In this document: one piece after another, positions 10,019-18,733 of the stretch
Layout of the letters: every line of letters begins with the position of its first letter
How positions within the stretch are numbered: position 1 is the stretch's first letter
Assembly: GCF_004361815.1 (NCBI RefSeq)
Contig: NZ_SNWA01000001.1
Span: forward strand, 1-64,000
Direction: 5' to 3'
Source of the DNA: Paraburkholderia sp. BL10I2N1
GTDB lineage: Bacteria; Pseudomonadota; Gammaproteobacteria; Burkholderiales; Burkholderiaceae
Length of the DNA: 64,000 bases
Translations under genes and position numbers: made by a program
The notes under the pieces: generated by a model
Told to the model about the DNA's origin: nothing
Database searches by the model: none
The model's input: the letters and a program-made list of their open reading frames with translations, nothing else

Positions 10019-10111
10019 TTACGCAGCCTCGCCTTGCTGGGCTGCGAACCAGTTTTTCTCGAATGTCATGGGACTGACGTAGTCGAGTGTCGAGTGTAGT
10101 CGATGCGCATT
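10019..10111 (-). pseudogene. IS3 transposase (OrfB), C-terminal fragment
   Basis: Thirty codons plus stop encode the last part of an IS3 OrfB: NAHRLHSTLDYVSPMTFEKN, ending QQGEAA and TAA. It was cut from the preceding part of the gene by cassette 1, whose left boundary is at 10114/10115. The upstream codons FY are found at 12642-12647, and the joint is exact. Confidence 0.9.
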
Positions 10112-10647
10112 GTACAAGCCGTCAACACAACGCCCATATCAGCGAATCAAAGGAGGTTCTCTACCGCTGGCACCCGTGGTACGGGCACACGGTATGGATT
10201 TTCACCACGATAGAGAGGAAGAACGCCGAGTCAGTGCTGCGCTGTGGGCGAGAGCCGTTCGACACGGCGGGCTTGCTGGAGGTGCCGCAATGGATGTTCG
10301 ATCCCGTTGCCTGCTGTCGCATTACCTCGGCAACGTCTCCCGCCGTCAGCTGTGAAGCATTGAGGGAACTGAAGTACCTGCTGGCGCAGGCGCCTGCTGC
10401 CACGCCGCGCGGTATGGTACAAGCCGAGCACCATCCTTTGCTCCGTACAGGAGGTGCTGATGCGACGCCAGACAAACCCCCAACCGGGAGGTCAACTCGA
10501 CCTGTTCCGTCCCTTTCCGAAGACACCACAATGGGCGCACCTGCCGCAAGAGGTCCGGCAGCAGACGGTGCGTTTGCTGGCGCAACTGCTGCGGCAACAC
10601 CGTCGCGGGCTGCTCGCCGCCGTACACGAGCCGGAGGTGCGCGATGA
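10087..10647 (+). CDS. Y4bD/DUF5372-like cassette protein
   Basis: The core RWHPWYGHTVWIF, then LEVPQWMFDPVACCRI and SCEALRELKYLL, is that of the first gene in this kind of recombinase cassette, related to the rhizobial Y4bD proteins. The second half is an Ala/Gly/Pro/Arg-rich tail that overlaps the next gene in another frame, as in relatives. The frame opens upstream of the cassette end at 10115, in IS3 DNA; the native start is probably just before VLYRWHP, where AAAGGAGG lies at 10149-10156 but no standard start codon follows. Function is unknown; it may act with the recombinase on DNA. Confidence 0.6.
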   Translation: MSSVVDAHCTSRQHNAHISESKEVLYRWHPWYGHTVWIFTTIERKNAESVLRCGREPFDTAGLLEVPQWMFDPVACCRITSATSPAVSCEALRELKYLLAQAPAATPRGMVQAEHHPLLRTGGADATPDKPPTGRSTRPVPSLSEDTTMGAPAARGPAADGAFAGATAAATPSRAARRRTRAGGAR

Positions 10648-10651
10648 GTGA
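10460..10651 (+). CDS. Small cassette protein
   Basis: A 63-residue protein starting at ATG 10460 behind AGGAGG. It starts MRRQTNPQPGGQLDLF and contains a helical segment LPQEVRQQTVRLLAQLLRQH. Its stop overlaps the recombinase start by 8 bp, so the two are translationally coupled. Homologues sit in the same place in related cassettes; the function is unknown, perhaps a recombination accessory factor. Confidence 0.65.
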   Translation: MRRQTNPQPGGQLDLFRPFPKTPQWAHLPQEVRQQTVRLLAQLLRQHRRGLLAAVHEPEVRDE

Positions 10652-12614
10652 CAAGATTCGGGCGCAGCATCTGGCGCGCAAGGCCATGCTGTACGTGCGC
10701 CAGTCGTCGGCCTACCAGGTCAGCCACAATCTGGAGAGCCAGAAGCTGCAGTATGCGATGCAGGATCGTCTGCATCAGTTGGGCTGGAACGAGATCGAGG
10801 TGATCGACGAGGATCTGGGACGCTCTGCGGCCGGAACGCAAACGCGCACGGGCTTCGAACGGATGGTCGCAGAGGTCTGTCTTGGGCTCGTCGATCAGGA
10901 GACCGTCTACTCACCGCGGCAGAGCAACGATCGTTTGCTGCTCGGCTTGAAGGGCAGCCTGAACGAATACGAGCTGGATCTGTTGCGTCAGCGTTCGCTC
11001 GAAGCTCGTCGGGAGAAGGCCAAACGCGGCGAACTCATTGTCGCGGCGCCGGTGGGTTACTGCAAGACCGAAGACCAGCGCCTGGAGAAGGATCCGGATT
11101 TGCGCGTGCAGGACGCCATCCGCTCAGTATTCCGCCAGTTCGGCGCGATTGGTTCGGTGCGTCAGACGTTGTTATGGTTCCTGGAGCACGGCCTGCAGTT
11201 GCCGGCATGCATGCCGCGCGGCGAAATCCAATGGAAACGGCCGAGCTACGGCACGGTGTACCGGATCCTGACCAATCCGATCTACGGTGGCACGTATGCC
11301 TATGGCAAGACCGAATGCGCGATCCATTACGAGGCTGGGGAACCACGCAAACGTGATCGCCGCAAACCACGGGATCAGTGGCTTGCGCTCATTCCGAATG
11401 CCCACGAAGGGTACGTTGACTGGGACGAATTCGAACGGATCCAGTGTGCCATTAGCGGCAACCTGCGTCTGGCCGGACACGCTGGCGCCCCGAAGAACGG
11501 TGAGGCCCTGCTGGCGGGACGATTGCGCTGCAGGCGCTGCGCGAGCAAGCTGACGCTACACTACACGGGTAACAGGCACGACGCCTTGCGCTATAGCTGT
11601 CATCGCGGCTGGATGGACAAGGGGCAACCGCGTTGTATTGCGTTCGGTGGCACACGCGCGGACGCGGCCATCGCCGAGGCGGTCTTGCAGGTCGTTCAAC
11701 CGGCGGCAATTGAGGCAGCAATCGTGGCGCGCGAAGAAGAGACCCTGAAGCAGGACGAAGTGCTGGCCGCGTTGCAGCGGGATCTTCAGGCTGCACGCTA
11801 CGCCGCGCAACGCGCGCAGAAACAGTACGATGCTGCTGACCCCGAGAACCGGCTTGTCGCCGACGAACTGGAGCGGCGCTGGAATCATGCGCTACTACGC
11901 GTAGAGGAACTGGAATCGCGTATCGAGCAACAGTCGCGCACATCCGGCCAGATACCGCCTACCCAGCCAGAGGAGTTTGCCGATCTTGCCACTGCATTGG
12001 AATCGATCTGGCCGCAGGCCGACGCCCGCCTGAAGAAGCGCATAGTGCGCACCCTGATCCACGAAGTCGTCGTTGACGTTGACGACGCAACGAGCGAAAT
12101 CGTGCTCGTCATTCACTGGAAGGGCGGAGTACATACCGAGATTCGCGTGCCGCGGCGGCGCCGCGGAGAGAACACTACGCATACGTCACGTGAAGCAATT
12201 GATGCCGTGCGCCAGCTCGTCCGTATCTGTCCGGATCTGGTGATTGCCGGCGTGCTCAATCGTAATGACCTGCGAACCGGCCGGGGTAACTTCTGGACCC
12301 AGGAGCGAGTCACCGCGTTGCGCAGCCACCATCAGATCCCGGTCTATTCGAGCGAGCGACGTGCTGCTGAAGGATGGATGACGTTGACCGAGGCATCGGC
12401 GTTCATCGGTGTGAGCCCCGGAACGCTCAGGCTCGCAGTTGAGCGCAACAAGATCCCAGCCGAACATCCGTTACCCAACGGGCCATGGATCTTCAATCGC
12501 GCTTCGCTGACCGGGGACGCAGTTACCGAACTCGTCGGACGGGCTCGCGCACGGCGCGGACACCCCACAATACCAACGACACAACAGGGCTCTCTAGATT
12601 TATCAACAACATAG
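10644..12614 (+). CDS. Large serine recombinase with catalytic-domain deletion
   Basis: A 656-residue recombinase with an N-terminal resolvase domain (YVRQSS, candidate nucleophile Ser21 with Arg19), a recombinase domain (RPSYGTVYRILTNPIYGGTY), a zinc ribbon (CRRCASKLTLHY ... CHRGW), a coiled coil (370-440) and a C-terminal HTH (AEGWMTLTEASAFIGVSPGT). Compared with the recombinase at 14021 it lacks 33 residues after AEVCLG (residue 81), the segment that contains SRLARN. In characterised serine recombinases that helix holds two active-site arginines, so this protein is probably inactive. The deletion keeps the frame. Whether it still binds DNA is open. Confidence 0.85.
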   Translation: MSDKIRAQHLARKAMLYVRQSSAYQVSHNLESQKLQYAMQDRLHQLGWNEIEVIDEDLGRSAAGTQTRTGFERMVAEVCLGLVDQETVYSPRQSNDRLLLGLKGSLNEYELDLLRQRSLEARREKAKRGELIVAAPVGYCKTEDQRLEKDPDLRVQDAIRSVFRQFGAIGSVRQTLLWFLEHGLQLPACMPRGEIQWKRPSYGTVYRILTNPIYGGTYAYGKTECAIHYEAGEPRKRDRRKPRDQWLALIPNAHEGYVDWDEFERIQCAISGNLRLAGHAGAPKNGEALLAGRLRCRRCASKLTLHYTGNRHDALRYSCHRGWMDKGQPRCIAFGGTRADAAIAEAVLQVVQPAAIEAAIVAREEETLKQDEVLAALQRDLQAARYAAQRAQKQYDAADPENRLVADELERRWNHALLRVEELESRIEQQSRTSGQIPPTQPEEFADLATALESIWPQADARLKKRIVRTLIHEVVVDVDDATSEIVLVIHWKGGVHTEIRVPRRRRGENTTHTSREAIDAVRQLVRICPDLVIAGVLNRNDLRTGRGNFWTQERVTALRSHHQIPVYSSERRAAEGWMTLTEASAFIGVSPGTLRLAVERNKIPAEHPLPNGPWIFNRASLTGDAVTELVGRARARRGHPTIPTTQQGSLDLSTT

Positions 12615-12641
12615 CGAGGTTGGGCAGTATGAAACGCACTT

Positions 12642-12755
12642 GTAAAAGCCCAGCCAGTCAATCACCTCATCCATCGCGGCACGCCGCGTGGCGAAGTGCC
12701 GTCCATGCATACGTGCGACCTTCAGCGAACCCCACAGACTTTCGGTCGGCGCGTT
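12642..12755 (-). pseudogene. IS3 transposase (OrfB), middle fragment
   Basis: Exactly 38 codons of OrfB remain between the two cassettes: NAPTESLWGSLKVAR through DEVIDWLGFY. It holds the catalytic Glu of the DDE triad (NAPTE). The upstream codons ending GDCWD are at 16120-16134 and the downstream codons starting NAHRLH at 10111, so the frame reads through when the cassettes are removed. Confidence 0.9.
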
Positions 12756-12778
12756 GGAGTCCGCAGACAACTGCGCCC

Positions 12779-13048
12779 GTGAGTAACGCTGGAAGCCGAC
12801 GTTTTCAGGTAACTCATCCGTACCATCCCCTTCATTTGCAGGAATTCGAACTGGTCCTTCACGCCCAGAACTGGCATGAGGACAGGGTCTGGTTTCACGA
12901 CGCGAATGGCCGACTGCGGGCGTTGCCCGCCAGCTGGACGAGCGTCGTCGGCGAGGACCCATTCAACGTGGTCGCTGCCGGACGCGCCTTGTTTCGTGTG
13001 GAAGAACTGCTTGAACTGGGGCGTTTGATCGCGACGCTGGAGCCATGA
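12779..13048 (+). CDS. DUF5372/Y4bD family protein
   Basis: An 89-residue protein starting at GTG 12779, the first start inside the cassette. RFQVTHPYHPLHLQEFELVL, NWHEDRVWFHDANGRLRALP and WTSVVGEDPFNVVAAGRALF are the hallmark of the family found beside y4bA-type recombinases. It is likely a small beta-barrel protein. Distant likeness to the first gene of cassette 1 (RWHPWYG...LEVPQWM) suggests a common role. Function unknown. Confidence 0.75.
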   Translation: MSNAGSRRFQVTHPYHPLHLQEFELVLHAQNWHEDRVWFHDANGRLRALPASWTSVVGEDPFNVVAAGRALFRVEELLELGRLIATLEP

Positions 13049-13257
13049 ACAGCGCAAGCACGTGTAAAGCCAAATACGCCGAATATGTAAAGTCAATCAT
13101 GCCCGATGTCGCCTTCTATGGCGATCCTGTGTTCCAGTATTGGTCCATTTATTCGGCCATATTCGCGCATATATTCCAGAAATTGGACTTGCATATTCAG
13201 AACTATGGTACATAATTATATTTACACTGACTTGGCCGCCCTCTCTGGAGTTCGTGC

Positions 13258-13719
13258 ATGGCGACAGACCGACGCAACGAGGACAAGCACCGCGCGCTGC
13301 GGGAGCAGGCGAGCCTCAATCCGCGCCCCGATGCCGTGACGCATCCGCTGTTTCGGGACGGAGAGTTCTTCGATCCCCACGATCTGCTGCAGGTCAAGTA
13401 CGAGATGCTGCGCGCGGTGCGCGTGGACAAGCGGCCGATCAGCGAAGCGGCCAGGTCATTCGGTTTCTCCCGCCCGTCGTTCTATCAGGCTCAGGCGGCC
13501 TTCGAACAGGGCGGACTGGCGGCCTTGATTCCGCAGAAGACCGGGCCGCGCAGCGGCCATAAATTGACGCCGGCGGTGATGGAGTTTCTGAACCGGGCGC
13601 GGGTTGCCGAGCCGGCTGTGCGAGCGGAGCGACTGGCCAGCCTGGTGCACCAGAACTTCGGCGTACAGGTTCATCCGCGCAGTATCGAACGGCAGTTTCT
13701 GCGCCAAAAAAAACCGTAA
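13258..13719 (+). CDS. Helix-turn-helix protein (Y4bB-like)
   Basis: A 153-residue protein. After a variable N-terminus, VDKRPISEAARSFGFSRPSF is a helix-turn-helix of the transposase/Homeodomain-like type (about residues 60-85), followed by GGLAALIPQKTGPRSGHKLT, a motif common in transposase N-terminal DNA-binding domains. No catalytic domain follows. In the cassette it lies between the DUF5372 and the 97-residue gene, and could serve as a terminus-binding or targeting subunit; that role is inferred. Confidence 0.75.
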   Translation: MATDRRNEDKHRALREQASLNPRPDAVTHPLFRDGEFFDPHDLLQVKYEMLRAVRVDKRPISEAARSFGFSRPSFYQAQAAFEQGGLAALIPQKTGPRSGHKLTPAVMEFLNRARVAEPAVRAERLASLVHQNFGVQVHPRSIERQFLRQKKP

Positions 13720-13730
13720 CGAAACCGTCC

Positions 13731-14024
13731 GTGTCATTGCCGGACCGTGCGCTGTGCAATGACGGACTGATCTCGCGTTATGAAGATCTGAGACAGCAGG
13801 CACTTGGACTGCCGTGCGAGATTCCTCGCGGCCAGGGCCTCGTGCTGTTGATGCGCAGCGGCATGAGAGCGTGGATGCAGGCATGGGCGCAGTGCGCGAC
13901 CACGGTTGTACGGCGGCAGCCGCCGCCTGGTGAGACAGGGATCGTCCCCTTCACGCTGCATCAGGAGGCGACGATGATTCTGGCTTCAATGCTTCTACAT
14001 GGGCGTCAGGAGGCAACAGCATGA
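13731..14024 (+). CDS. Y4bC-like cassette protein
   Basis: A 97-residue protein of unknown function starting at ATG 13731, 11 bp after the HTH gene and overlapping the recombinase start as ATGA, so the three genes look coupled. The middle contains GQGLVLLMRSGMRAWMQAWA, a probable amphipathic helix. No fold is recognised. Its constant place in this cassette type suggests that it is part of the recombination machinery. Confidence 0.65.
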   Translation: MSLPDRALCNDGLISRYEDLRQQALGLPCEIPRGQGLVLLMRSGMRAWMQAWAQCATTVVRRQPPPGETGIVPFTLHQEATMILASMLLHGRQEATA

Positions 14025-16102
14025 AGAGCGATCCTCACCAGAAGGTCCAGGCGAGCCATCTGAAGCGCAACGCCTATCTGTATATCCGGCAATCGACGCT
14101 GCGTCAGGTGTTCGAGAACACCGAGAGCACCAAACGCCAATACGCGCTGCGCCAGCGGGCCGTTGCCCTGGGGTGGTGCGAGGACCGGATTATTGTGATC
14201 GACAGCGATCTCGGCCAGTCCGGCGCTTCATCGGCGGATCGCGAAGGCTTCCAGCGCCTGGTTGCCGAAGTCGGCGTGGGTCACGCCGGCATCGTGCTTG
14301 GACTGGAAGTATCGCGCCTGGCGCGCAACTCCACCGACTGGCACCGGCTGCTCGAGATCTGCGCAATCACCGACACCTTGATCCTTGACGAGGATGGCGT
14401 ATACGATCCTGCTCACTTCAACGACCGGCTGTTACTGGGGCTGAAGGGCACCATGAGCGAGGCCGAATTGCATGTGCTGCGCGCACGACTGCAAGGAGGA
14501 ATCCTAAGCAAGGCGAGGCGTGGTGAGCTGCAGATGCGTCTGCCTGTCGGCTTCGTGTATAACGCCGCGGGCGCGGTCGTTCTCGATCCGGACCAGCAGG
14601 TCCAGCACTGCCTGCGGTGGCTGTTCGACACCTTCCGCGGTACGGGATCGGCGATGGCCACCGCACGCGCTGCGCATCACCTCGAGCTGGCGTTTCCGCG
14701 ACGGTGCTGCAAAGGTCCGCACAAAGGCGAACTGCTGTGGGGCAGTCTCGGTCACAGCCAGGTGGTGCGCATTCTGCACAACCCGAGGTATGCCGGCGCG
14801 TTCGTCTACGGTCGCACTCATACGCGCAGGACAGTCGATGGACGCACGCGTGTGATTCGCGCCCCGCGAGACCAGTGGGATACGCTGATTCCGGGTGCCC
14901 ATGCCGGTTATCTGTCCTGGGAAGAGTACGAGCACAACCAGAAGCGTTTGCATGAGAGCGCACAGGTGATCGGAGCCGACCGGCGCCGTGGCGCGCCGCG
15001 TGAGGGTCCAGCACTTCTTCAGGGACTCGTGGTCTGTGGTCGATGCGGGAACCGCATGACGGTCCGTTATCACAGCCGCCAGGGCGGCTTGTGTCCCGAG
15101 TACATCTGCCAGCGCGAAGGCATCGAGCAGGCCGAACCGGTCTGCCAGCGCATCCACGGCGCGGCCATCGATGAGGCCATTGGCGAACTGCTCGTCGAAG
15201 CGCTCAATCCGCTTGCCATTGAGGTGAGCCTGGCGGTTCAGCGCGAACTCCAGTCCCGCATCGAAGAAGCCGACCGTCTGCGTCACAAGCAGGTGGAGCG
15301 CGCCCGGTATGAAGCCGATCTGGCGCAGCGTCGCTACATGCGCGTCGACCCCGAGAACCGGCTGGTTGCCGACTCGCTCGAAGCGGACTGGAACCATAAG
15401 CTTCGAGCGCTGACTGAGGCTAACGAGGAATATCAGCGTCGCCGCGAACAGGACGCGCGCATCCTGACGGACGAGCAGCGCGCCGTCATCGTCTCGCTGG
15501 CGTCCAACTTCCCCCGGCTATGGCGCGATCCCGCCACGCCCGACCGGGAACGCAAACGCATGATGAGGCTGCTTCTGGAAGACGTCACCCTGAACCGCGA
15601 CCAGCAGGTTACCGCACACATCCGCTTCAAGGGCGGCGCTCACCGGACCCTCAGGCTGCCGTTGCCGCTGAAATCGTGGCAGCGATGGGTCACCCCCGCC
15701 GCGGTGATCGAGGAGATTGACGCACTGCTCAATCACCATACTGTCCTGCAGATCGCGAATATTCTGAACGCACGTGGTGCGCCCTCGGGCACGGGTAGGC
15801 CCTTCAATGCAAAAATGGTCGCGCGCCTGCAGCGCAACTACTGTCTGAAGCCGCGCTATGACCGGTTGCGCGAAGCGGGTCTCCTGACGCTGCAGGAGAT
15901 GGCCGACGCGCTGCACGTCACGCCGACGAGCGTGAAGATATGGAACCGTCGCGGACTCATCCGCGGTCACGCCTACAGCGACAAGAACGAGTGCCTGTAC
16001 GACCCGCCGGGCAATAACGCGCCCAGAAAGGCGATGGGCGTCAAGCTGTCCTGCCGGCGTCGCCATCCCGACGTCGTTTCTGATCGCCGCGAGGAGGTGT
16101 AG
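14021..16102 (+). CDS. Large serine recombinase, apparently intact
   Basis: A 693-residue recombinase starting at ATG 14021 behind CAGGAGG. Domain order: resolvase catalytic domain (YIRQST with Ser25; LEVSRLARNSTDW with Arg99 and Arg102; NDRLLLGLKGTMSEAEL), recombinase domain (HSQVVRILHNPRYAGAFVYG), zinc ribbon (CGRCGNRMTVRY ... CQREG), coiled coil around residues 410-480, and a C-terminal HTH (LTLQEMADALHVTPTSVKIW). All expected catalytic residues are present, so this copy could move its own cassette and perhaps cassette 1. Its stop lies 15 bp from the cassette end. Confidence 0.9.
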   Translation: MKSDPHQKVQASHLKRNAYLYIRQSTLRQVFENTESTKRQYALRQRAVALGWCEDRIIVIDSDLGQSGASSADREGFQRLVAEVGVGHAGIVLGLEVSRLARNSTDWHRLLEICAITDTLILDEDGVYDPAHFNDRLLLGLKGTMSEAELHVLRARLQGGILSKARRGELQMRLPVGFVYNAAGAVVLDPDQQVQHCLRWLFDTFRGTGSAMATARAAHHLELAFPRRCCKGPHKGELLWGSLGHSQVVRILHNPRYAGAFVYGRTHTRRTVDGRTRVIRAPRDQWDTLIPGAHAGYLSWEEYEHNQKRLHESAQVIGADRRRGAPREGPALLQGLVVCGRCGNRMTVRYHSRQGGLCPEYICQREGIEQAEPVCQRIHGAAIDEAIGELLVEALNPLAIEVSLAVQRELQSRIEEADRLRHKQVERARYEADLAQRRYMRVDPENRLVADSLEADWNHKLRALTEANEEYQRRREQDARILTDEQRAVIVSLASNFPRLWRDPATPDRERKRMMRLLLEDVTLNRDQQVTAHIRFKGGAHRTLRLPLPLKSWQRWVTPAAVIEEIDALLNHHTVLQIANILNARGAPSGTGRPFNAKMVARLQRNYCLKPRYDRLREAGLLTLQEMADALHVTPTSVKIWNRRGLIRGHAYSDKNECLYDPPGNNAPRKAMGVKLSCRRRHPDVVSDRREEV

Positions 16103-16119
16103 TGTGAAACGCAAGCCTT

Positions 16120-16803
16120 ATCCCAGCAATCGCCGCGTCGGCTCATCGACGAACGCATGCCGTAGGCCTTCAACGCGTCCTGGAACAGGCCGCTGCAATA
16201 CTGGCTACCCCGGTCGCTATGGACGATTACGCCGGCTTCCGGGTGGCGCCGGAACCACGCCATACGCAGTGCGTCGGTGACCAGCTCAGCCTTCATGTGC
16301 GGCTGCATCGACCAGCCCACCACCTGCCGGCTGAACAGGTCGATGATGACCGCGAGGTACACCCACCCCTCGGCTGTCGCCAGATAGGTGATATCGCTCG
16401 TCCAGACCTGGTTCGGTGCGGTAGCGGTGAAATTGCGCTCCAGCAGATTCGGCGCCACCGGCAAATCGTGGTTCGAGTTCGTCGTCGCGATGTACTTGCG
16501 CTTGTGGCGGGCGCGAATGCCATGCTGCGCCATCAGCTTGCGAACCCGCTCCTTGCGCACGCGCACGCCACGCGCGAGCAGTTCCTTCCACATGCGCGGC
16601 CAGCCGTACTCGCCCTTGACCTGCGCGTGAATCGCCTTGATGTTTGCGAGCAGTGCATCGTCGCTCAAGCGGCTTCGGTGCGGCCTGTCCTGCGCGGTGC
16701 GTTGCCGGCGCTGATGATATCCGCTGGGGCTGACCTCCAGCACTTCGCATAGCACCGAGACCGGCCAGTGGCGTCGATTGCGCTCAATGAATGCGTACTT
16801 CAC
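16120..16803 (-). pseudogene. IS3 transposase (OrfB), N-terminal fragment
   Basis: The first 228 codons of OrfB start at GTG 16803 (VKYAFIERNRRHWPVSVLCE). The rve core is visible: VWTSDITYLATAEGWVYLAV with the first catalytic Asp and GVIVHSDRGSQYCSGLF with the second. Native sequence ends at RRGDCWD; beyond it the open frame runs on for 47 codons of antisense recombinase sequence to a stop at 15973. The start overlaps the orfA stop (ATGTGA), as usual for the family. Confidence 0.9.
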
Positions 16804-16851: not shown

Positions 16852-18207
16852 TCACGTTGGCGAACCCTGAGGTTGCAGTGAATATCCAAATTGCGCCGCG
16901 CGGCGATGAAGCTGCTTGATAACACGGTCCCTGTACTGCTGTTCGTAATGATCCGCACCCGGGTCGCGGTAGTCCATGCCGTAGCGCATCGCGTTATAAA
17001 ACAGGACAGCGATCTTGCGCGCCGTCGCGGTCACGGCCTTGGCATTCCCGATCCGGCCGGCAAGGCGCCGGTAGAATGCGCCAAGCGCGGTATTGCTTCT
17101 TCCAACGGTCACCGCCGCAAGCCTCAGCGCGACTGTGATGCGGCTGCTGGTTTTGCGCGTGTGCGATGACAGTACCTTGCCACCGCTGATCTTGCAGCCG
17201 GGCGAAAGCGTGAGCCACGAAGTGAAATGCTTGGCGGTTGGCCATCGGCTCAGGTCCGTTCCGCATTCGCCGATCAGGCGCAGCGCAAGGAATGGACCGA
17301 TGCCGTGGATTTGCGTCAGGTCGGTCCCCGCAAGCTGGTACATGGCCGTGCGCACATCGAAGCTGGGATCGCTGGGCATCTTGCTGCGATGCTTCGCCTT
17401 CGGCAGCGGTGCTTCCGGAATCGGGTGAGCGACATTGAGAATCGCGACAGCTCGTTCGATCTCAACGTCGCACTCGTCAATGCACTGCTGGTAAAAATCG
17501 TAGAGCGCAAGCGCCTGTTTCAGGGCGAACACGTGTTCGGGCTGGTAGTTGCCCACCAGCGCATGACGAATGGTCTCAAGGCTTTCCTTGCAACGGACGT
17601 CGCGCATTGCCGCCAGTCTGTCCGGATCGCGCTCGCCGGCGACGATCGCGCGAATGATCCGCATCCCAGTGACGCCCGTAATATCCGCGATCACATGGTG
17701 CAGCTGGATATTCATGAAGGTCAGCGCCTTCTGCATGTGCTGGATGTGCGCGGCGGCGTAGTCGGTATGCCTTTCGCGGGAACGCAGGTACGCGCGCAGT
17801 TCCGCGATGTCGCGGCCAGGCCGGAAACTTGCCCGCAGCAATCCGCACGCATGCAGCCGCTGCAGCCATTGTGCGTCGTTGACGTCGCTCTTCCTGCCGG
17901 GGACTGCGCGCGCCTCGCGTGCGTTGGCCAGAATGACTTCAAGGCCCTGGGACTCTAGCACCTCGTAGGCGGCGACCCAGTACACGCCGGTCGATTCCAT
18001 CACGACCGTCTTTGTGCCGGTCGCGACGAGCCAGTCAGCCATGCGTTGCAGATCGCCGGTAAATGCCTGGAATGTCTGCACCGGCTCGTCGCACAAGTCG
18101 GGACTGACGGCGACAACATGGAACCGCGAACCGATATCGATACCGGCTGCGAACGGATGAATGATCGGTAACCCCGAGGGCTTGGATCGTGTTCGGTCTT
18201 TTGGCAT
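16852..18207 (-). CDS. IS110 family transposase
   Basis: A full-length 451-residue DEDD-type recombinase. The N-terminal RuvC-like domain shows the acidic set: Asp24 in GIDIGSRFHV, Glu71 in VVMESTGVYW, and Asp108/Asp111 in GRKSDVNDAQW. The C-terminal Transposase_20 domain contains IHGIGPFLALRLIGECG and the serine-bearing stretch GCKISGGKVLSSHTRK. In studied IS110 elements this enzyme is guided by an RNA made from the non-coding end. The gene appears intact. Confidence 0.92.
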   Translation of the reverse strand: MPKDRTRSKPSGLPIIHPFAAGIDIGSRFHVVAVSPDLCDEPVQTFQAFTGDLQRMADWLVATGTKTVVMESTGVYWVAAYEVLESQGLEVILANAREARAVPGRKSDVNDAQWLQRLHACGLLRASFRPGRDIAELRAYLRSRERHTDYAAAHIQHMQKALTFMNIQLHHVIADITGVTGMRIIRAIVAGERDPDRLAAMRDVRCKESLETIRHALVGNYQPEHVFALKQALALYDFYQQCIDECDVEIERAVAILNVAHPIPEAPLPKAKHRSKMPSDPSFDVRTAMYQLAGTDLTQIHGIGPFLALRLIGECGTDLSRWPTAKHFTSWLTLSPGCKISGGKVLSSHTRKTSSRITVALRLAAVTVGRSNTALGAFYRRLAGRIGNAKAVTATARKIAVLFYNAMRYGMDYRDPGADHYEQQYRDRVIKQLHRRAAQFGYSLQPQGSPT

Positions 18208-18448
18208 GGCCCACCTCCTGGATAGTCAGGCGCAGGACGGGGACTCGGAATAAATCAATTTCCTAAACGGGGTCGTCCGAAGACGCCGCCACAGATGAGT
18301 CCGCAGCTTCCCCTGGGCCAGGTTCTTTGACGGGGTTCATGCCTCCAAGAAGCTTACGGCCACTGTCTCTGCGTGCATCGAGTGTACTCGCCCGGAGTTT
18401 CTATTCATGAGGGCCGCGCGCAAGCGCGTGGGACGGTTTTTTAAAATA
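18208..18448 (-). ncRNA. Candidate bridge-RNA region of the IS110 element
   Basis: This 240-bp non-coding end precedes the transposase on the same strand. IS110 elements such as IS621 make a structured bridge RNA from the equivalent place, with loops pairing to target and donor DNA. A GC-rich hairpin (CGCGCG with loop AA, near 18415-18430) lies inside. I could not derive the two guide loops by eye, so this is an inference from element architecture. Confidence 0.35.
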
Positions 18449-18699
18449 TCTCGCTCCATCTTCAGGCGAGCCACCTCCGCACGCAGCCGGGCCAGCTCCA
18501 TCTGTTCCGGGCTTACTGGCTTTGTTCCAGCTCCCGCCAGCTTGCCTTCCCGGTCAGCCTTCACCCAGTTGTACAGCGTCTGTTCAACCACACCCAGTGT
18601 CGCCGCCACGGCTACCATGCTTTGCCCGGCCTTGACCAGCCGCACCGCTTCCAGCTTGAATTCGAGCGTGTACTGTGCCCGCTTTGCCTTGCCTGTCAT
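18449..18699 (-). pseudogene. IS3 OrfA, N-terminal part
   Basis: The DNA-binding OrfA of the IS3 element begins at ATG 18699: MTGKAKRAQYTLEFKLEAVR, an HTH (MVAVAATLGVVEQTLYNWVK) and the leucine-zipper stretch EQMELARLRAEVARLKMERD. It is cut after DIL by the IS110 insertion; the open frame continues into IS110 DNA to 18337. The missing C-terminus (KAAAYFARESM) lies at 16800-16838. Confidence 0.9.
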
Positions 18700-18733
18700 C
18701 GTTCTTCTCCTTGCGTGAGTTTACCTGCTCAGC

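Follow-up and report, generated by a model that had tools for sequence, protein, structure and literature searches.

Small serine-recombinase transposons that probably insert at conserved coding motifs in the genes of other mobile elements

Within a window of 64,000 nucleotides (the whole stretch of DNA analysed, from a genome of 9,202,521 bases in 4 contigs), a single IS3 OrfB gene on the minus strand (10022-16803) is interrupted twice, by cassettes that we designate A and B. We interpret both, at a probability of about 0.9, as serine-recombinase transposons that insert at conserved coding motifs in the genes of other mobile elements. Together with their relatives, the two cassettes suggest parasites of parasites.

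Two elements within one IS3 gene

An intact IS3 protein (P0001, 296 aa, 97% identical) was aligned to the window by tblastn in three contiguous pieces at 94-100% identity with zero residues lost, indicating that A and B both entered one IS3 gene precisely. The sequence-only reading had described two cassettes in one IS3 transposase gene, each ending in a large serine recombinase; the three-piece match confirmed the location, and the ORFs and Pfam domains confirmed the recombinases. The features of the region are as follows.

10022..10114, minus strand: 3′ part of the IS3 OrfB gene, residues ~267-296 (P0001 tblastn)
10087..10647, plus strand: open frame holding A orf1, crossing the left joint; conserved part ~10129-10371 (ORF list)
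10115..12644, plus strand: element A, 2530 bp, core TTGTA/TA counted once (P0001 match, joint comparison)
10460..10651, plus strand: A orf2, 63 aa, overlapping the recombinase start (ORF; relatives)
10644..12614, plus strand: A recombinase, 656 aa, without 33 residues that its relative L135 has (Pfam, L135 alignment)
12624..12644, plus strand: right-end 21-mer of A, GCAGT...TA (end comparison)
12645..12755, minus strand: IS3 OrfB residues 229-266, between B and A (P0001 match 12755-12642, 100% over 38 residues)
12754..12755, no strand: TT core at the left joint of B, repeated at 16118-16119 (copy comparison)
12756..16119, plus strand: element B, 3364 bp, TT core counted once (comparison with the second copy L007)
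12770..12774, plus strand: left arm ACTGC of B, 14 bases inside the core (sequence)
12818..13048, plus strand: domain part of the DUF5372 gene, whose open frame starts further upstream (PF17342, E 8.6e-20)
13258..13719, plus strand: transposase-like HTH protein, 153 aa (HTH_28/HTH_29; weak IS481/IS630 profile matches below cut-off)
13731..14024, plus strand: 97-aa ORF, its stop overlapping the recombinase start (ORF list)
14021..16102, plus strand: large serine recombinase of B, 693 aa (Resolvase, Recombinase, zinc ribbon)
16099..16119, plus strand: right-end 21-mer of B, GTAGT...TT (arm the inverted partner of ACTGC, one mismatch)
16120..16803, minus strand: 5′ part of the target gene, IS3 OrfB residues 1-228 (P0001 tblastn; the longer frame matches NF033516 and rve)

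Element B has a second copy (L007) at 2.10 Mb on contig 1 of the same genome. The two are identical over 3369 bases (12754-16122) and lie in different flanking DNA, so that the joints of B are not due to chance; the five differences in the aligned block all fall left of TT, within the target. L007 occupies another IS3-type gene, between GNCHD and KATTESFFGTL, and the window joint lies between GDCWD and NAPTESLWGSL, at homologous codons. Both copies thus share two bases (TT) at the crossover without a long target duplication. In B-type elements the arms GCAGT (right) and ACTGC (left) each stand 14 bases from TT, inverted, as expected of an attP. The common right-end string reported earlier for A and B was found again, as GCAGTATGAAACGCA at 12624 in A and GTAGTGTGAAACGCA at 16099 in B. 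Pfam analysis of the B recombinase returned PF00239 (E 2.2e-18), PF07508 (8.3e-16) and PF13408 (6e-08), and the 97-aa ORF had no family match in the four libraries searched. The order DUF5372 then HTH is conserved in 78 of 100 B-type elements.

Element A is differently built. Neither a DUF5372 nor an HTH gene was found in it by Pfam or by the search of relatives; relatives of its orf1 and orf2 occur in 20 and 13, respectively, of the 26 A-type rows (the window's own rows counted). Its recombinase is ~33% identical to that of B over the main stretch and 84% identical to L135 (tblastn), with one in-frame gap of 33 residues that removes the conserved SRxARN stretch (SRFARNS), which we take to be needed for catalysis. 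The Pfam families are those of B, with the resolvase domain disrupted where the 33 residues are missing, and from this deletion in its sequence A is probably dead on its own. The joints of A have TTGTA in common (10110-10114 and 12640-12644), and the relative L222 carries TTATA at the left joint and TTGTA at the right. Together with the 21-base spacing that TA would then share with B, the L222 joints make TA a more likely core of A than TT, this putative 2-base core being deduced from the shared TTGTA. Two earlier statements, that both cassettes carry a y4bA-D-like gene set and that both have TT at their joints, stand for B (the latter by copy comparison). The first does not hold for A, which has another first ORF and the 63-aa ORF, and TT is the less likely core of A. 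We rejected the placement of A and B in one family with one gene set on recombinase identity (33%) and gene content; they belong to two sub-families, which differ in gene set and probably also in core.

Beyond this IS3 copy, an ORF at 16852-18207 reads as an IS110-type transposase and is followed at 18337-18699 by an IS3 OrfA-like frame (HTH_Tnp_1 match for 18340-18720); the copy may be split a third time, at 16852-18699. Elsewhere in the genome (contig 2, ~626.5 kb; L274:2001-3277), another IS3 copy is cut after residue 228, as in the window, by an element that differs from A and B and whose ORF reads as an IS110-type transposase; the IS3 part past this interruption (residues 229-291) shows only 45% identity. 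Proteins P0002, P0013 and P0037 also break at the residue-228 codon. L011 was considered as an empty IS3 copy and rejected, since another element interrupts it at the same codon.

Relatives and their target genes

Plasmid records matched B in 539 cases and A in 513. Scanned genome contigs held 143 B relatives, of which the best 80 were kept, and 17 of 249 genomes of the host family contained B relatives at E 1e-100; relatives occur in records of many phyla. With further plasmid loci added, 179 distinct places were assembled, near copies among them, so that the rows are not independent. Removal of 2 partial duplicates and of rows with less than 230 nt of right flank left 152 with at least 230 nt, 150 of which were taken into the Pfam right-flank scan. 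Comparison of copies and relatives, proposed earlier as the way to define termini and target, yielded exact ends for B, a coding motif as target and no long duplication. A transposon family with defined ends, as earlier supposed, was upheld with respect to the exact ends (copy comparison), the hundreds of relatives and the conserved B-type gene order, and failed with respect to one family with one target. A homology search of the collected rows did not find the B accessory genes in other branches hitting similar targets, and the multi-subunit nature suggested in the sequence-only reading would require a role of the small genes in recombination. The right-end regular expression fails for some branches, so that only for the A and B types are core positions more than tentative.

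A third relative in the window's genome (L008/L003; contig 2, 2.256 Mb; 45%) lies in a group II intron reverse transcriptase at IPKANGKLRPLGIST, and L009 (contig 2, 2.4056 Mb) is a lone 27-residue, 67% match to the C-terminal part of the B recombinase. Four draft contigs (L039, L040, L071 and L093) end exactly at the element right terminus CTT/TTT, as expected of a repeated sequence.

Of the 152 elements, 133 were found in mobile-element genes, one in a host gene and 18 in targets without assignment. The mobile-element labels were obtained by phmmer sequence linkage for 104 and by reading of the joint for 29; for some linkage groups, which contained no named reference, the name was assigned by reading. 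The 133 comprise other rve-type DDE genes, mostly IS3 (54), istA (37), istB (14), IS66 TnpC (10), group II intron reverse transcriptase (6), IS66 TnpB (5), IS91 (4), IS5 (2) and ISL3 (1). The IS91 label was read from the motif at the joint (WAxL..RVF before it, xxDVLxCPxCG after it), and the IS91 Pfam model gave no match in a plus-strand scan of 36 chosen frames. Pfam analysis of the longest minus-strand right-flank frames (n = 150; one frame can match several families) detected rve in 62, HTH_21 in 23, rve_3 in 14, IstB in 11, DDE_Tnp_IS66 in 8, HTH_Tnp_1 in 4, DDE_Tnp_1 in 2, and ISL3, RVT_1 and RVT_N in 1 each. Control frames 2 kb further out (n = 101) gave HTH_Tnp_1 in 7, HTH_21 in 3 and DEDD_IS110 in 3; rve occurs in at most 1 of the 101, since it is not among the 25 of 45 families listed, and neither IstB nor IS66 is among those 25.

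The sole host-gene target seen is in a host-family genome (L115), where an A-type element lies in a gene reading as a dnaE-type DNA polymerase. To the right of L156 and L158 the plus strand appears to encode the C-terminal part of IS66 TnpC, and these elements seem to be inserted in the opposite orientation; the ends of their branch share GC, a palindrome.

Insertion position, movement and alternative explanations

On the target strand, the core TT of B-type elements takes positions 1 and 2 of an AAx codon (Asn or Lys), four codons before the catalytic glutamate of DDE transposase genes. When the left joint was located by the element's own arm (TT, 14 bases, then ACTGC with at most one mismatch), glutamate stood at residue +5 from the joint in 35 of 41 B-type sites, and in all 22 whose left arm was perfect; we take this residue to be the catalytic Glu of the DDE triad (NAPTE, KGRVE, KAKVE). 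Two of the six sites without Glu at +5 (L045 and L147) have a second arm that gives Glu. L147 appears to combine flanks of two istA types, with RRPRD to its right and KGRVER to its left, which would fit recombination between two copies of the element. A two-sided comparison found 27 of 92 DDE-labelled loci matching one intact reference on both flanks with residues adjacent within 10; for the remaining 65 no pair of this kind was obtained, many lacking a left flank or a reference.

Other branches enter other motifs. A-type elements enter the IS3 YNxxR motif, with YN at the start and R at +5 in all 8 left joints located among the 25 distinct rows searched. Reading from the joint, we found the IstB Walker A motif entered in L112, L123, L254-L256 and L258, the FRGRRG motif of IS66 TnpB in L114 and L124, DNNxxERxxR of IS66 TnpC in L134, L240, L242, L253 and L263, and RPLGIPT of the group II intron reverse transcriptase in L107, L119, L121, L008 and L106. 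In a recombinase tree built by a quick method (n = 89), the target labels require 32 changes, as against 51.2 in shuffles, and none of 200 shuffles was as low. The IstB Walker A, IS66 TnpC and IS3 YN branches stand apart from the B branch, within which istA and IS3 targets are mixed, indicating that these elements target a motif rather than a gene family.

A target matrix from 33 empty sites contains ~20 bits, with 2 bits at each base of TT, ~2.1 and ~1.5 bits at two bases encoding the Glu codon and mostly less than 1 bit per position elsewhere. In 30 of 33 cases the left-out site scored above 99.9% of the 5378 TT sites of the window, a result slightly favoured by the selection of sites, since 6 mislocated sites had been removed for an arm pick without E; 2 duplicates had also been taken from the original 41. 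The constant bases may be read by the enzyme or may merely be constant in transposases, and the sequences fit either.

Plasmid pNGR234a carries two blocks of 3325 bp that are 100% identical, one in a gene between CANTPQA and KGRVERANQ, beside an annotated ISNCY transposase, and the other in a gene between RPRRPRD and KAKVEAAVR, beside IstB of ISRel16. The recombinases of L170 and L271 are likewise identical in the tree and sit in different targets. Identical elements in unrelated targets argue that the element moves between unrelated insertion sequences by itself. Sequence comparison thus shows exact ends, target positions and the movement of identical copies between unrelated targets.

The large serine recombinase would move these small transposons as follows. 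A circular form of the element would serve as attP, with inverted arms around the 2-base core, and the recombinase would join it to an attB in the target by a 2-base crossover, leaving no long duplication. For B-type elements attB would consist of the codons just before the DDE catalytic Glu, for A-type elements of the YNxxR motif of IS3 OrfB, and other branches would use other conserved motifs. Such sites are multi-copy, dispensable to the host and kept constant by the function of the target protein. We infer the circle, the crossover chemistry, the roles of the small genes and the benefit to the element from the sequences.

A loose choice of targets followed by differential survival, in which the recombinase accepts many sites, insertions that hit useful genes disappear and insertions into IS genes survive and multiply along with their IS, would draw on the degeneracy of the target motifs outside TT and the E codon, on the dispensable and multi-copy nature of IS genes, and on the L115 copy in an apparent dnaE-type gene. 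Survival alone does not, however, bring insertions to one shared codon across IS3, IS21, ISL3 and further DDE genes, and spacers and ordinary dispensable genes would be equally harmless yet are not the targets seen; we regard this explanation as improbable. Landing in IS genes by chance, because these are common near mobile DNA, accords with surroundings rich in transposase fragments (HTH_Tnp_1 and IS110 DEDD in the 2-kb control frames), but is contradicted by the joint-level counts (rve at 62/150 as against at most 1/101) and by codon-exact joints, and it is barely credible.

If the elements were mainly passengers of insertion sequences, with a recombinase kept for another purpose such as resolution, one could point to a ~5.9-kb block of IS21 plus element that occurs at four places (L143, L148, L264 and L265; S. 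meliloti, S. medicae) within direct repeats of 7, 7, 9 and 9 bp, and to IS and element being about equally diverged in 3 of 6 pairs. In the other 3 pairs, though, divergence of the element exceeds that of the IS by 1.3-1.6 points, identical elements occupy unrelated transposase genes, and the elements of L149 and L264 share 99.64% identity although they lie in different istA genes. IS21 may move with its passenger, as these sequences read, the alternative being repeated entry into separate IS21 copies; as a general account, passenger status is very unlikely. The sequence-only reading itself, one family with a four-gene set and a GCGCR-TT target, would hold for the window's two joints if the core of A were TT. 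It is contradicted by the second copy of B, which entered TGGCC-TT, by the varying DNA left of TT in other B-type sites and by the absence of the gene set from A, and deserves almost no credence. Insertion by the recombinase at conserved coding motifs is the explanation that we favour.

Relation to known systems and significance

On pNGR234a, a four-gene set that presumably carries the y4b names resembles B in its order (DUF5372, HTH, a small ORF labelled 'transposase', recombinase), in a recombinase relative at 53% and in entry before the catalytic Glu codon; A does not share this order. The record differs in annotating single genes, and no account of ends and target was found in the papers searched. 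Large serine recombinase integrases and transposons include the TnpX/TndX type. Elements of this kind resemble A and B in the Resolvase, Recombinase and zinc ribbon domains, the 2-base core, the inverted arms and the lack of a long duplication, and differ in that A and B target conserved codons in the genes of other mobile elements. Tn5053-type elements aim at resolution sites, not at coding motifs, and use a different transposition machinery. As transposons aimed at another mobile element, these res-site hunters (PMC7765201) resemble the A/B family. Helper-embedded PICIs have an integrase clade that repeatedly targets prophage late genes, with subclades per site (PMC10111431), a repeated tropism for another mobile element's genes like that of the A/B family; PICIs are large phage satellites, whereas the A/B family has a serine-type recombinase and, as hosts, IS elements and group II introns. 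DUF4368 is present in 63% of the large serine recombinases of the multi-targeting clade of Durrant et al. 2022, hence not universal (PMC10083194); A and B differ from this clade in giving no Pfam match to DUF4368 at E up to 1.

Several other identities were rejected. A classical DDE insertion sequence is contradicted by the lack of a DDE gene (Pfam) and of any duplication beyond the core. A phage integrase or prophage was discarded since the five A and B proteins match only integrase, invertase, transposase and DNA-binding families of PHROGs; 175 phage records match B, none covering more than 80% of it. An RNA element in the stretch was dismissed (no Rfam match at gathering score), as was a defence system (PADLOC on the five proteins, no match).

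Searches of open-access PMC papers yielded no account of the family, nor any of serine recombinases that target transposase genes, although the supplement of PMC10083194 may hold one. DUF5372 had no mention in those papers, and y4b names appeared only in an unrelated one. The earlier suggestion that no transposon family with this gene set has been described is consistent with this search of open-access papers. What is new is the choice of target at conserved codons of mobile-element genes; the kind of element itself is known.

We see an even chance that a broad clade of serine transposons consists of hyperparasites reading codons that their victims cannot change, namely those of the DDE catalytic Glu, the IstB Walker A motif and conserved motifs of IS3, IS66 and the group II intron reverse transcriptase. 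Each hit would silence a single victim copy, and the victim, if sister copies still mobilise it in trans, may carry the passenger. If this is true, the elements would act as a brake on insertion sequences and provide a natural collection of recombinases directed against transposase genes.

A family of this kind would form a dedicated layer of parasites on insertion sequences and would account for the recurring 'hypothetical, HTH, recombinase' gene sets on rhizobial and other plasmids. It makes testable how a motif at the protein level, instead of a single DNA sequence, can guide a serine recombinase and whether such elements limit the spread of insertion sequences, and it would offer recombinases whose natural sites lie inside transposase genes.
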